NCBI GenBank assembly: GCA_914767715.1
Contig: OU612069.1
Coordinates: forward strand, 16,427,387 to 16,491,386
DNA from: Membranipora membranacea
Lineage: Eukaryota > Bryozoa > Gymnolaemata > Cheilostomatida > Membraniporidae
Length of the DNA: 64,000 bases
Reading direction: 5' to 3'
Shown: piece after piece, positions 44,694-52,750 of the stretch
Layout: each line of letters starts with the position of its first letter
Numbering within the stretch: the stretch's first letter is position 1
Made by a program: the position numbers and the translations under genes
Notes under the pieces: generated by a model
What the model was told of the DNA's origin: nothing
The model's input: only the letters and a program-made list of their open reading frames with translations
Databases searched by the model: none

Positions 44694-44699
44694 TTTATT
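44694..44699 (-). terminator. AATAAA overlapping the stop of the kinase-Arb2 gene
   Basis: The first A of AATAAA is the last base of the TAA stop codon (44699-44701). If used, the 3' UTR would be only some 15-30 bases. Confidence 0.5.
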
Positions 44700-47600
44700 T
44701 AGGGATTTCCAGGTGAGCGATCTTGAAATTTGTTCTCAATGAACTCAAAAACCTGCTGAAATGCCTTGTAAGGTGTCTCGATGTGATTGGGTGTACCAGC
44801 TGATACACATTCTACATCACAACCCCAGATCAGCACTTTGGTGCCAATTGGCATATTACTACTAACCCAGTTGCGTGTCACCTGCAATGAAAAGAAAGGT
44901 CTGGATTGAAGTTTGGCAAGGTTGAAAGACTGTCCTGGCAAGACATTCTATGACTTGTAACATGAAATTGTGGTTGAAATCAGTAATTGTGATGAATTGA
45001 AATCTTGAAATTGATTTAAACCTCGGTTGCAACAAGTGATATCAATAAAAAGCACTCTCTTGTATGGTGGCCGTATGGTTGTTGTGTTGAAAGCTATTTT
45101 TCCCAGTTTAAGAAAATGTGTCCTGGGACCTCTGACTACCCTCAAAAATACGGTTTACTGTATATAAGTTTATAAAATTTGAAGATGATGGACATAGACA
45201 GGAGACAGACTGCATTAAAAACCTACTGCAACCAATGCTGATGTAAACTTTTCAGTCCCTGTCAATTTGCCAGAATCTTCCTCTACAAAGTCACTTTCAT
45301 ACAGACAAGTTGAAACTTGCCAAATAAAACTCAGTGGAATTCACTTCTTATTCATATTCGGTTTTCATTTTTGACCACCAAATAGCTTAGACATTGTTAT
45401 CAACGGTAGTTTATTGAGTTATCTGACCTTTCTTGCGTAGCTGACTAAAGATTTGCTGTAGTTGGAGGCATTAGCACCAGTGAAAGCATTGGCAAACACT
45501 CTTCTCTTGAAGTCTTCTGTAAATTCGCTCATCATTTCTCTGGCTACCTGGCCACCTTGACTGTGAGCTTTCACCGCAATATGGGTGGCCTCAGCTTTAC
45601 TGATATAATGCTGCCACACATACAGGCCATGCTTGATGGAATTTTGGCAGCCCTGAAACATTGAATATGCGTTTATCAAAATTTTATAAATAATATTTTT
45701 GGCATTGCATTATTAGGCCTTATCTGTGGTATCGGATATATAGGAGGTTGCCTGGGTTCATTCGAAAAAATTTACACCATACAACAATATTTCCAAAATT
45801 GTGTCCAACTTCCAACTCAATTTTCAACCTGTTACCCCAGATGTTAGTTTGACACTTCATCTTTTGTTGATGTAGTGCTATTCCAGAGACTGGGTCAAAG
45901 TTTTAGCACTTCATCGATTGCTAAAACTCCATCCAGGTTGAGTTTGTGGCATTTATTATCTGATTCCAAATGGTTGGAATAATGATTGTTTCAATAAGTG
46001 ACCAAATGATCATCAAAATACTTTTTACTTGCTACCTGATAATCATCAGACATAAATTGTTAGCATTATAAATACAATAATAGATGTACAACGCAGGGGA
46101 AATAATGGTCTCGTTGGATTAATGTTAGACTGACAGCTACCTCCACTCCAGGTTTATTGTCGTTTGTATTGAGCACAACAACTCCATACCCTCTATCCAG
46201 TGCATGTCTTATATACGGCAATTGAGTTCCCTCATCCATTGAGTTGTTTATCATCAGACTGTTATGTACCATATACAAGAATTCCAAATCATTAAATGAA
46301 GATTTGTTAATATATGGATACAATTGATCAACGTTGGCAAGAGAGACTGTTTTGTATGAGGCTATGGTTTCTTGCCTATGTCACCTGGGGCCCTGTGGGG
46401 TGGGAGAGTTAAAGAGCAGTAGGGCAGAATGACTGATCACAGTCCAATGTCGTCTTGGACTGCAATTCTACTCACAGCCGGCACACTGTATTCTTTTATA
46501 ACACATTTCGGAACAATACCTCTATTCATTTCCCCATTGTGTTATATATAAATCATGCTGTTTTGTTAGCTCCAAAGGCCTGCTTCAAAACGTGATACTC
46601 ACCATGAATATGAATATCAAAATGTAGCTAAAAACCTGTATTTTAATATATATCATTTCTGTCAAACCCTGAGTATTGCTAACTTTTTTGCAGGCCTGGA
46701 AAGAGCACCAATCGAAATTTCCCCCATTTCTACCGCACATTTCCATTGCCAACATGGACACCATCAAAGGCTATAAATGCATTATGCTTTAGATTTTATA
46801 TCACTTTATTTTTCGAATTTCAATCCTCTACACATTTAAGAATAGTTTCATAGTATTCTACAACCCACTAATGCAATAGCTCGGTTTTTCCAGCTTGTTT
46901 TTGATCAAATTTGTAATTTATTTTATTTCGAGCAGTCGTTCAACAGGCCCATGATTGGATAAATAGGGGTGTTGTACCTTCACATGCGCAAACACATTTC
47001 CTAAGTGGCAATGAGGAACTTGAACTACGTTGTTACTTAGCACACTGATCACATGATATACTATTGCATAAATATCTCATAATAGTGTAGTCTCGATGTC
47101 AGTGTGATTACTGAGCAACAGGTCATAAGAAAGGTAAGTACTTGGTCAGTTGTGAGAAAAATTGAAACCCAAAATGACTTTGGCATGTGATCAGATGTTT
47201 GCATTATACTCGTTCTCTCACCAACCCCCGCCCAACCCAAAAATCCTACATGAGTCATAGAGATACTTTCTTGTGATGACTCGAATGAGTCCTCAAAAGA
47301 CTCTGCGTTACCAATATTTTCAATGTCAAGCTTCCAGACAATTGTTGAATTAATGTCTATAGGCCAACCTTGCTGTCCATAGTGTAGGAGAGGAAAATGT
47401 GATATTCACTTACCGCCTTGTCCATTGCCCTGCACGAACCTTGCCAGATCCATGTATGAGCACAATGAGTCTCTGACATGTATTCCAGTTTTCTGAGGCA
47501 AATATCACTGTTCCAGAGTTGTCAAAGTCTTGTCTTATACTTGCCTATATAACAATTAGAAAATCATTTTTGTGAAATCGGGTAACAGTTGTTTTTTTCT

Positions 47601-50600: not shown

Positions 50601-52750
50601 TTATACTGTTGTCCATGGTCAGAAATATGTTGGCTGGCTTCAAGTCTCTGTGTATAATCTTTCTGCCATGTAAGTACTTGAGCGCAAAACATATCTCAAC
50701 TAACCAAGTCCAAACCTATAACATTGACATGAGGAAAGCTGTTGATGGTGGAAACAGGTAGTTTTTTGTGGGATGGGACATGAGATATGAGAGTTATAGA
50801 CCTACCTATTCTGATTTTGGTCAATCACCAAATATATAATACTAATATGGTCGCAAATCAGTGGGATATAGTCTGAGCCCCCCAGACTTTCGCCCCTCGT
50901 CCGACGGCTCCCCGGGCGAGAGTGGGATACTTTTTGACTGTTGTGTGTCATATGCAAAATGTGTAGCCTACATTGAACTTAATTTTCATCGTCATGAGCA
51001 AGATTGATCTTATTCTCTGACTCTCTCTTGCTGCTCTGGAGCTGACTCAGGCCTATCAGCAGAAGGGAACAACTCAAACTGTCAATTGAGACGAGCTAAT
51101 TTTAGACACTAAAATTGAATTCATTACAGGCAACGGAATTTGATTAAGAATTATCATCAAAAACTAATATTATTTTACCTGATCTTCTGGGAATGGACTG
51201 GTTTGTGCTCTTACTTTCCCCATCAGATCACCGCCCTCACAGTACTCTGTGACAATGTACAAGTTTGATCCTTCTACAATAAAGACTCATTATTCATACA
51301 TTAGATTCTATAGCATCTACGGAATAACAGGATGCCTAAATGACAATGGGTATCGTCCCACATTACAATTAATACAACAAAAAATGATACACTAAGACAT
51401 AAAATAAACAACATAAGTTTCTTCGTTGTAACAGATACCGCCAAGTGACAAAAAGATTACTATACTAGCAGAGTATATTAACATGTGATAACAGGCCAAC
51501 TGATAACATGCAGTGTCACTATATCAACGAGTTATTATGCCAACAGCAAAACTAAGTTTAATCATTATGATTGCATGGTCAGATTACTGATTACCTTTGA
51601 AAGAGTCGAGGTATTTCACAATGTTTGGATGGCTGATAGACTTAAGAACATCCACCTCTTTCTTTGCATCGATCTCTGCCTTCCCTGTGGCTGGGCTTAG
51701 GTCTACAATCTGTAAAACAAAAATCAATTATCATTATTATTATCAAGCTATTATGGCTGATGGAAACCGGCAAAAGAGACACTACGGCAGATGGTGACAG
51801 TAGGCCAGGTTGGCAAGGACTGGTGAAAAGAACACTTCCGCCTGGGTGAAGCTGCATCAATGGTGATCAGCACTTTGAGCTGGGAACATTAATTGGCAAG
51901 TCACCGCTGCCAATGATGGATCTGTATGATTGCGCATTTCATTTCAGGAACATTTCAAAAAATAAACCATGTCGAAGCAAAGATTTCATGACTTGAATGT
52001 TGGGAAGATGTTATGATCTGATTATAAAACCGATTGGGATGACACAATTTGTCATACGCTCAGGACTGCACCCATGGGTTATTATATAAATAGAAGGGCA
52101 AAATGGGGGTGGGTGTAGAAGAGGTGCCAGCATATAGGGTTGTATGATTGCAAGGTTGTTATCCACAAGAACATCATCGGATATGACTTTCAATTAGAAT
52201 GAGGGAGTTTTCCCCATCACATCGCTCAAAATTATCACTCACTTGGTCTTTCGATTAGACAAAGTCGTTTCAAATGTATATAGTTCCATCAGTGAGTGAG
52301 CCATTTGCGAGCGAGAGCCTAGCAGCTACACCTCACTCGTTGAGTGAGCGATCAGACTACGATGTTGGTTGCTTTTAATGGAAAGACACCCCCAGGTTAG
52401 CTGTTAGTTAGCAGACAACAGATGTATCCAATTGTTGATGAAAGCTTTGCCAAGGGACCCTCGACACTGAAACATTTCACCTGACACTGAACCGCCCTTC
52501 ATTTTGTTTAAAAAAAAAACATTGTAGGCTTTTCAACCACAGGGTGTGAACAGTCAATATAATTAACGTAAATGGAGTAAAGGCGGTAAGCCCCATTGAT
52601 CCAACTTACCTTCAACACACACAGACTTCGGGCATGTGTATCCTTGAACAAGTAAGCTGCACCAAATCCCCCTCGTCCTAGAAACCGTACTTGCTCATAC
52701 CGACTAAGGTGAGTTTCCCTGTAATGTTGATAAGTCAAAAATCCACCCAT
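44699..52750 (-). CDS. NEK-like protein kinase fused to an Arb2/FAM172A domain
   Basis: Thirteen exons (52750-52610, 51709-51595, 51273-51179, 50715-50564, 50161-50020, 49739-49618, 48913-48813, 48616-48522, 47900-47832, 47544-47414, 46258-46141, 45652-45428, 44881-44699) join in phase to 562 codons. Kinase, residues about 18-272: glycine loop LGRGGFGA (24-31), K47, alpha-C E65, HRDLKPAN (139-146), DFG (159-161), GTFHYISPE (178-186), DAWSLG (198-203), RQRPS. It looks catalytically competent and NEK-like. Arb2 part, about 290-562: '[16 protein letters not shown]' (370-385), '[20 protein letters not shown]', 'AHSQGG' with S458, and '[12 protein letters not shown]' with H535. Vertebrate FAM172A/ARB2A has no kinase domain. 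Exon 1 also contains an internal ATTACAG acceptor (exon would start at 52718), so an unseen upstream exon is possible. Confidence 0.85.
46960..47110. repeat. Dispersed repeat in the kinase-Arb2 intron
   Basis: Shares 'ATAATAGTGTAGTC' and 'GATGTCAGTGTGATT'-like words with 36955-37160. Non-coding. Confidence 0.4.
52236..52352 (+). repeat. Dispersed CACTGAGTGAG repeat, third copy
   Basis: Carries 'GGTCTTTCGATTAGACAAA' and 'ATGTATATAGTTCCATCAG', followed by GAGTGAG palindromes, as at 8625-8755. It lies in intron 1 of the kinase-Arb2 gene. Confidence 0.55.

Follow-up and report, generated by a model that had tools for sequence, protein, structure and literature searches.

Does the minus strand of a 64,000-nucleotide stretch of the genome of the bryozoan Membranipora membranacea (GenBank assembly GCA_914767715.1, contig OU612069.1; C5:16427387-16491386, hereafter the window) encode a single protein in which a protein kinase is joined to an Arb2 domain, and, if so, where does this combination come from and what might it do? 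Judged from the sequence, the gene and its architecture are almost certainly real: a NEK-type kinase with an Arb2 half C-terminal to it is encoded in the window, at three further loci of the same genome, and in six annotated proteins from two other bryozoan genera.

Gene model and domain assignment

The first-pass annotation of the window had proposed one gene of 13 exons and 562 codons. An independent rebuild bears this out with the same end points: on the minus strand, from 52750 to 44699, 13 exons join in phase to give 562 codons plus a stop, all introns are GT-AG, and the phases agree at each border. The borders previously given for the two exons flanking the passage from kinase to Arb2 (48913-48813 and 48616-48522) are identical in the rebuilt model, and the intron between them is in phase 1. 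The parts of the gene are the following:

52610..52750, minus strand: exon 1, with the ATG, the lead MGGFLT, the glycine-rich loop GRGGFG and K47; donor GTAAGT
51595..51709, minus strand: exon 2, kinase N-lobe with E65; 115 bases
51179..51273, minus strand: exon 3, kinase hinge region
50564..50715, minus strand: exon 4, HRDLKPAN catalytic loop and DFG; 152 bases
50020..50161, minus strand: exon 5, activation segment, SPE, Phe at APE-4; 142 bases
49618..49739, minus strand: exon 6, kinase C-lobe
48813..48913, minus strand: exon 7, end of the kinase domain and linker; 101 bases
48617..48812, minus strand: junction intron between kinase and Arb2, phase 1, GTGAGT...TGTAG; 196 bases
48522..48616, minus strand: exon 8, first Arb2 exon, containing RYEGIAN; 95 bases
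47832..47900, minus strand: exon 9, Arb2
47414..47544, minus strand: exon 10, Arb2, HGSG
46141..46258, minus strand: exon 11, Arb2, GTQLPYI...LNTNDN
45428..45652, minus strand: exon 12, Arb2, K455, AHSQGG (S458), FTGAN (G486 for Asp); 225 bases
44699..44881, minus strand: exon 13, Arb2, SAGTPNH (H535), stop TAA

The motif residues named in the first-pass annotation were all recovered in the rebuilt translation, in the kinase half (K47 and E65, located by counting along it, HRD at 139-141, DFG at 159-161 and SPE at 184-186) as in the Arb2 half (HGSG at 375-378, S458 within AHSQGG at 456-461, and SAGTPNH at 529-535). The kinase occupies residues ~18-268 and is followed by Arb2 from ~286 to residue 562, the end of the chain. 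For exon 6, a start at 49697, which yields a model of 548 amino acids, was rejected for the 14-residue hole it leaves in the kinase C-lobe, and the start at 49739 was chosen because it restores 14 codons required by the kinase fold. A start of exon 11 at 46392 breaks the frame and was replaced by 46258. The 5' end is unproven, and an additional first exon upstream of the ATG at 52750 is possible, since an in-frame TGA lies upstream of this ATG with two codons between them and an acceptor-like AG is present within exon 1.

Pfam and PDB sequence searches used the 548-residue model or parts of it, 14 exon-6 residues short. In that model Pfam Pkinase matches residues 18-251 with 195.9 bits (cut-off 31.7; 1.1e-57) and PF22749 (Arb2) the C-terminal half with 95.4 bits (cut-off 26.8; 4.7e-27), while PF09757 gives a weak match to the window protein (27.3 bits, cut-off 26.6). 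The PDB ranking of the kinase half is headed by NEK1 (4apc, 215.5 bits), followed by NEK7 (157.8), NEK2 (140.2) and Aurora A (133.1). Among the best 120 proteins listed by a search with the kinase half, a numbered NEK, wherever one is named, is Nek1 or Nek5; the top match is labelled ribosomal protein S6 kinase alpha-6-like, and for many entries no specific name is given. An AlphaFold2 model of one of the Watersipora subatra fusions described below (P0001, 41 rows) has a mean predicted local distance difference test score (pLDDT) of 87.9 and a predicted template modelling score (pTM) of 0.88; its single segment of at least 3 residues below pLDDT 50 covers 150-161 and lies in the region of the activation loop. 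The best PDB match of this model in Foldseek is again NEK1 4apc, and the 50 best rows are all kinases.

Distribution of the fusion and its standalone relatives

A search of 5.8 billion proteins with the Arb2 half gave 66 matches. A kinase domain is likewise present in the first six of them and in none of the others: five of these proteins belong to Watersipora subatra and one to Bugula neritina, all with the same domain order; one of the Watersipora proteins (P0004) is without the kinase N-lobe. These six, in two other bryozoan genera, are what came of the earlier proposal to search proteomes for Pkinase and Arb2 in one protein. They are annotated as "NEK1", "Nek5-like" and "FAM172 family protein homolog", among other names. 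A profile of nine fusions, in a search that scored only candidates sharing most words, recovered the same six at 781-914 bits within the best 120 of 3843 matches. The next match (616 bits) combines a kinase with SH3 and lacks Arb2, and no further protein with both kinase and Arb2 was found among those best 120 of 3843. The kinase-half search is no test of absence, because all six known fusions are missing from its best 120; the distribution thus rests on the Arb2-half and nine-fusion searches. Among the matches listed, the NEK-then-Arb2 order is seen only in bryozoans.

The earlier suggestion that a kinase coupled to Arb2 would be a new architecture stands for this order among those matches, but not for the coupling as such, nor were the bryozoan fusions absent from databases, where they already stood under NEK and FAM172 names. 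The AGC kinase PITG_06776 of Phytophthora infestans carries an N-terminal Arb2 domain, and its authors wrote in 2010 that no other known eukaryotic protein kinase carries Arb2 (PMC3019232). Compared by description only, this oomycete protein resembles the fusions in holding kinase and Arb2 in one chain, whereas it is an AGC kinase with Arb2 first and the bryozoan proteins are NEK-type with Arb2 last. The NEK-first, Arb2-last bryozoan form is a combination distinct from the oomycete one, and no description of a NEK-Arb2 protein was found among the matches listed by titles and abstract openings in the open-licence literature.

In the M. membranacea genome (339,339,785 bases searched), tblastn with phases left free identified three further loci with kinase exons followed by Arb2 exons, and a partial copy is also present:

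C4:17626121-17631748, plus strand: complete copy L009, modelled with 13 exons
C5:2251794-2260551, minus strand: complete copy L011, modelled with 13 exons
C9:15053151-15058841, minus strand: complete copy L012, modelled with 13 exons
C5 ~17.755-17.762 Mb: partial copy L043, kinase exons together with exons 8 and 13 of the Arb2 half, ALE for APE

Copy counts are lower bounds, only the best-scoring profile candidates having been scored. The PF09757 profile gave no match in this genome, which says little, as its control gave none either; the PF22749 profile found the Arb2 loci, although it too had no match in any of its 14 control genomes. In exon models of the other copies, here and below, the phases of the window gene were imposed and lengths were free within limits. 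Under these conditions the junction intron lies at the matching place in the three other complete copies, which share with the window gene the lengths of exon 2 (115 bases), exons 4 and 5 (152 and 142), exon 7 (101) and exon 12 (225); their exon 8 has 98 bases, versus 95 in the window gene. The linker at 269-290 is alignable across six fusions with 32-82% identity. The partial copy is nearest to L009 among the queries used and probably decayed; an exon search of the locus did not recover its exon 2 or exons 9-12. The N-myristoylation pattern is MGxxxS/T, and it fits the first exons of the window gene (MGGFLT) and of L012 (MGEFLS) and none of the starts of the remaining fusions, as modelled or annotated.

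Relatives of both halves also exist as standalone genes in the same genome, the closest being:

~C4:14903262-14906213: standalone Arb2 gene (L010)
~C5:22891788-22897750: standalone NEK-like kinase gene (L051)

In an Arb2 tree of 71 rows obtained by a quick search, the ten fusions form one group with a Shimodaira-Hasegawa-like approximate likelihood ratio test (SH-aLRT) support of 99, and L010, represented by its four 3' exons, adjoins this group (96). In a kinase tree of 43 rows without a known non-NEK outgroup, the ten fusions again form one group (99/96), adjoined by L051 (98/93); the NEK1-like gene of the genome (L050) is not the nearest and clusters with NEK1 and NEK5 from other animals (100/99). 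As each half forms one group in its tree, a single fusion event behind the ten fusions is suggested, and this event would date to or before the common ancestor of the three cheilostome genera. The lengths of exons 2, 4 and 5 (115, 152 and 142) are the same in L050 and L051, and L010 has an exon 12 of 225 bases, as in the fusion, and a matching exon 8 of 98 bases. The junction lies within an intron of phase 1, and the exon that follows it has a counterpart in L010; copies of a NEK-like gene and of an Arb2 gene were therefore likely joined through their introns.

Tandem copies of NEK-like exons were also observed on C5 at 18.6-19.2 Mb (L044-L049) and on C4 (L052); the almost identical matches of L046, L047 and L049 suggest that these three were recently duplicated. 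No Arb2 exons were found in 9.9-kb stretches near L044-L049, L050, L051 and L052, nor in an additional 9.9 kb downstream of L051 (L053), and no kinase exons in an additional 9.9 kb upstream of L010 (L054), the last two at E 0.01; short exons could escape all of these searches.

Sequence changes and candidate function

NEKs usually carry a C-terminal regulatory tail with coiled coils. The window protein has the K, E, HRD and DFG motifs and a kinase domain nearest to NEKs, with NEK1/NEK5-type kinases as the best match in sequence and, for the P0001 model, in fold; it differs from these in that Arb2 takes the place of the tail, the chain closing with Arb2 at 562 (no coiled-coil prediction was run), and in the residue at APE-4. 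Proline at this position is absent in 10/10 fusions and present in 221 of the 228 listed kinase matches (117/120 and 104/108). The Membranipora fusions have F (window gene), M, L and V there, the Bugula fusion I, and the Watersipora fusions V, I, A, V and S. At HRD+2, Lys is found in six of the ten, window gene included, and Thr in four Watersipora copies (P0003-P0006), one of which (P0003) combines it with Ile at APE-4 and so matches human NEK10 at both of its hallmark positions. The HRD and DFG motifs do not vary across the nine aligned fusions, and the L011 protein, outside the alignment, has both. In human Neks except Nek10, APE-4 is Pro and HRD+2 is Lys, and the Ser/Tyr dual specificity of Nek10 requires Ile and Thr at these positions; Nek1 given either residue is ~6-8 fold less active and with both is nearly inactive, its relative use of Tyr being raised by the APE-4 change and not by the HRD+2 change (PMC6570481).

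The Arb2 half shares with standalone FAM172A/ARB2A proteins the whole Arb2 region, with a PF22749 score above the cut-off, the nucleophile-elbow Ser, the C-terminal His and SAG..H, at 30-45% identity to 60 non-fused matches. The differences are consistent across the fusions: the Asp of the TDS motif, found in 60/61 non-fused rows, is Gly in 10/10 fusions (the window protein reads FTGAN, with G486 and no acid across 486-489); the residue before (A/S)HS is Lys in all ten, versus V, I or M in 61/61 non-fused rows; and T538 is followed by Pro in all ten, where the non-fused rows have Ser in 56/61 and Pro in 2/61. Residue 377 of the HGSG-like loop is S in seven fusions and G in three. The exchange of the TDS Asp for Gly and the loss of the APE-4 Pro look like functional changes. 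In 15/15 pairs of six fusions the Arb2 half is better conserved than the kinase half (within Membranipora, 64-72% versus 46-59%), as would be expected if Arb2 binding is their shared task.

Arb2 also lies C-terminal on an enzyme in fungal Hda1/Clr3 (PF09757), the enzyme there being a histone deacetylase and not a kinase; the ARB2 domain of yeast Hda1 dimerises, binds histones and has a fold resembling alpha/beta hydrolases (PMC5036196). FAM172A self-associates, and the mammalian protein binds AGO2 (PMC10205598). Given the dimers and histone binding of Hda1 and the self-association of FAM172A, it is probable that the Arb2 half of the fusions keeps the kinase dimeric and attached to a partner. 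We tentatively propose, with a little less than even confidence once the mechanism is included, that the window gene is an intact member of a family, so far observed only in bryozoans, in which a NEK-type kinase is coupled to an Arb2 docking and self-association module. The Arb2 half would be non-catalytic, would stand in place of the NEK tail, and would keep the kinase dimeric or bound to one partner; the kinase so held would phosphorylate itself and whatever Arb2 binds, and, being without the APE-4 Pro, might have an altered phospho-acceptor preference or lowered activity. A more specific version, which we consider unlikely, has the P+1 loop of the kinase shifted toward tyrosine or dual specificity and Arb2, having lost its presumed catalytic acid in all ten copies, acting as a fixed targeting or sensing module, the whole being a bryozoan invention; the several diverging copies per genome would then form a bryozoan-specific signalling set.

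The fusion itself, its conservation in three genera, its single clade, its several copies and the standalone relatives of its halves are established at the level of sequence. Several points weigh against the docking and self-association proposal. Ser458 and His535 are kept in 10/10 fusions, which one would hardly expect of a module with no catalytic role, and an Asp stands one place later (487) in 5/10, so that another acid may serve; that the lost TDS Asp was the catalytic acid is our own presumption. Self-association and docking would be carried over from distant Arb2 proteins, and a sequence search barely picks up Hda1 (E 0.19), the only better match being a designed repeat protein. The confidence of the P0001 model is no proof of a fixed arrangement between the halves, and the agreement in intron position cannot count as unbiased evidence, because phases were imposed in the exon searches. 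Gene and mechanism alike are derived from sequence and predicted structure.

The kept Ser and His, together with the HGSG-like loop and the Asp at 487, would also suit a bifunctional enzyme, an active kinase with an active Ser-His hydrolase in which another acid, such as the Asp at the next position, replaces the lost one. To our knowledge, no enzyme activity is known for any Arb2 domain, and the Gly at the TDS position in all ten fusions, with an acid-free stretch in the window protein, makes this improbable, despite the alpha/beta hydrolase-like fold of the Hda1 domain (PMC5036196); the hydrolase-like character previously ascribed to the Arb2 half holds for the Ser and His and fails at the Asp. 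It is somewhat less probable still that the fusions are regulators of Argonaute or chromatin, with Arb2 carrying the kinase to Argonaute or to histones, by analogy with the AGO2 binding of FAM172A (PMC10205598) and the histone binding of Hda1 (PMC5036196). Import of mammalian AGO2 depends mainly on the FAM172A nuclear localisation signal (NLS), aided by CK2 phosphorylation, and a residue within this NLS matters for AGO2 binding (PMC10205598). The long CK2/NLS loop of the mammalian type, deduced here from lamprey rows because the Arb2 set contained no mammalian row, is lacking: the loop has 15-16 residues, 1-3 of them basic, in 10/10 fusions (other nuclear signals were not searched), versus 60-75 residues, long and basic, in three lamprey rows. 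The residue relevant to AGO2 sits in that NLS loop, so the findings in mammals cannot be transferred to the fusions. The short loop says only this much, since invertebrate standalone Arb2 proteins often have a short one too (in the 29 of 61 non-fused rows that could be parsed, 60-75 residues in the three lamprey rows, 114 in one nematode and 11-30 in the other 25). Moreover, the standalone gene L010 persists and may retain such a role, so that an Argonaute link for the fusions cannot be assumed and would be only a guess.

We give a similarly small chance to an attenuated kinase family drifting toward scaffold-only pseudokinases. The effects of APE-4 Ile and HRD+2 Thr on Nek1 (PMC6570481), the Thr in four Watersipora copies, the missing exons of L043 and the faster divergence of the kinase half point that way, but the window protein retains K47, E65, HRD and DFG unaltered, and the HRD and DFG of the other fusions are preserved. 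A false joining of two neighbouring genes could be imagined, as the junction intron is short and the model was built from sequence alone; it is highly improbable, since kinase then Arb2 exons recur in 4/4 complete copies on three chromosomes and the annotated proteins of two other genera are continuous across the junction. The order shared by three further loci and six annotated proteins makes chance or a local mis-join very unlikely.

The gene is a clear example of a fusion specific to one lineage, the genome having kept relatives of either part, and it links Arb2, a domain that is still poorly understood, with a family of kinases that has been studied in depth. If Arb2 docks, the substrates of the kinase would reveal animal Arb2 partners beyond mammalian AGO2, and the loss of the APE-4 Pro in 10/10 copies offers a natural test of phospho-acceptor choice in NEKs.

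Neighbouring elements in the window

Just upstream of the gene and on the same strand, an open reading frame (ORF) at 54253-54738 (minus strand) has a weak similarity to the PARP catalytic domain (18.5 bits, cut-off 26.7). Its inclusion as a 5' part of the kinase-Arb2 gene was unsupported, and it was kept as a neighbour. Mobile elements were also identified in the window. A non-LTR (long terminal repeat) retrotransposon at 59842-63824 (plus strand) has two overlapping ORFs of 530 and 800 codons, the second with an endonuclease (PF03372) and a reverse transcriptase (PF00078). At 21022-22978 (minus strand), ORFs in different frames, one of them reverse transcriptase-like (PF00078, 34.9 bits), are probably a worn copy of a long interspersed nuclear element (LINE). 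Finally, an ORF at 4105-4635 (minus strand), whose YqaJ-like viral recombinase domain scores 28.5 bits with PF09588 (cut-off 22), probably originates from a mobile element.

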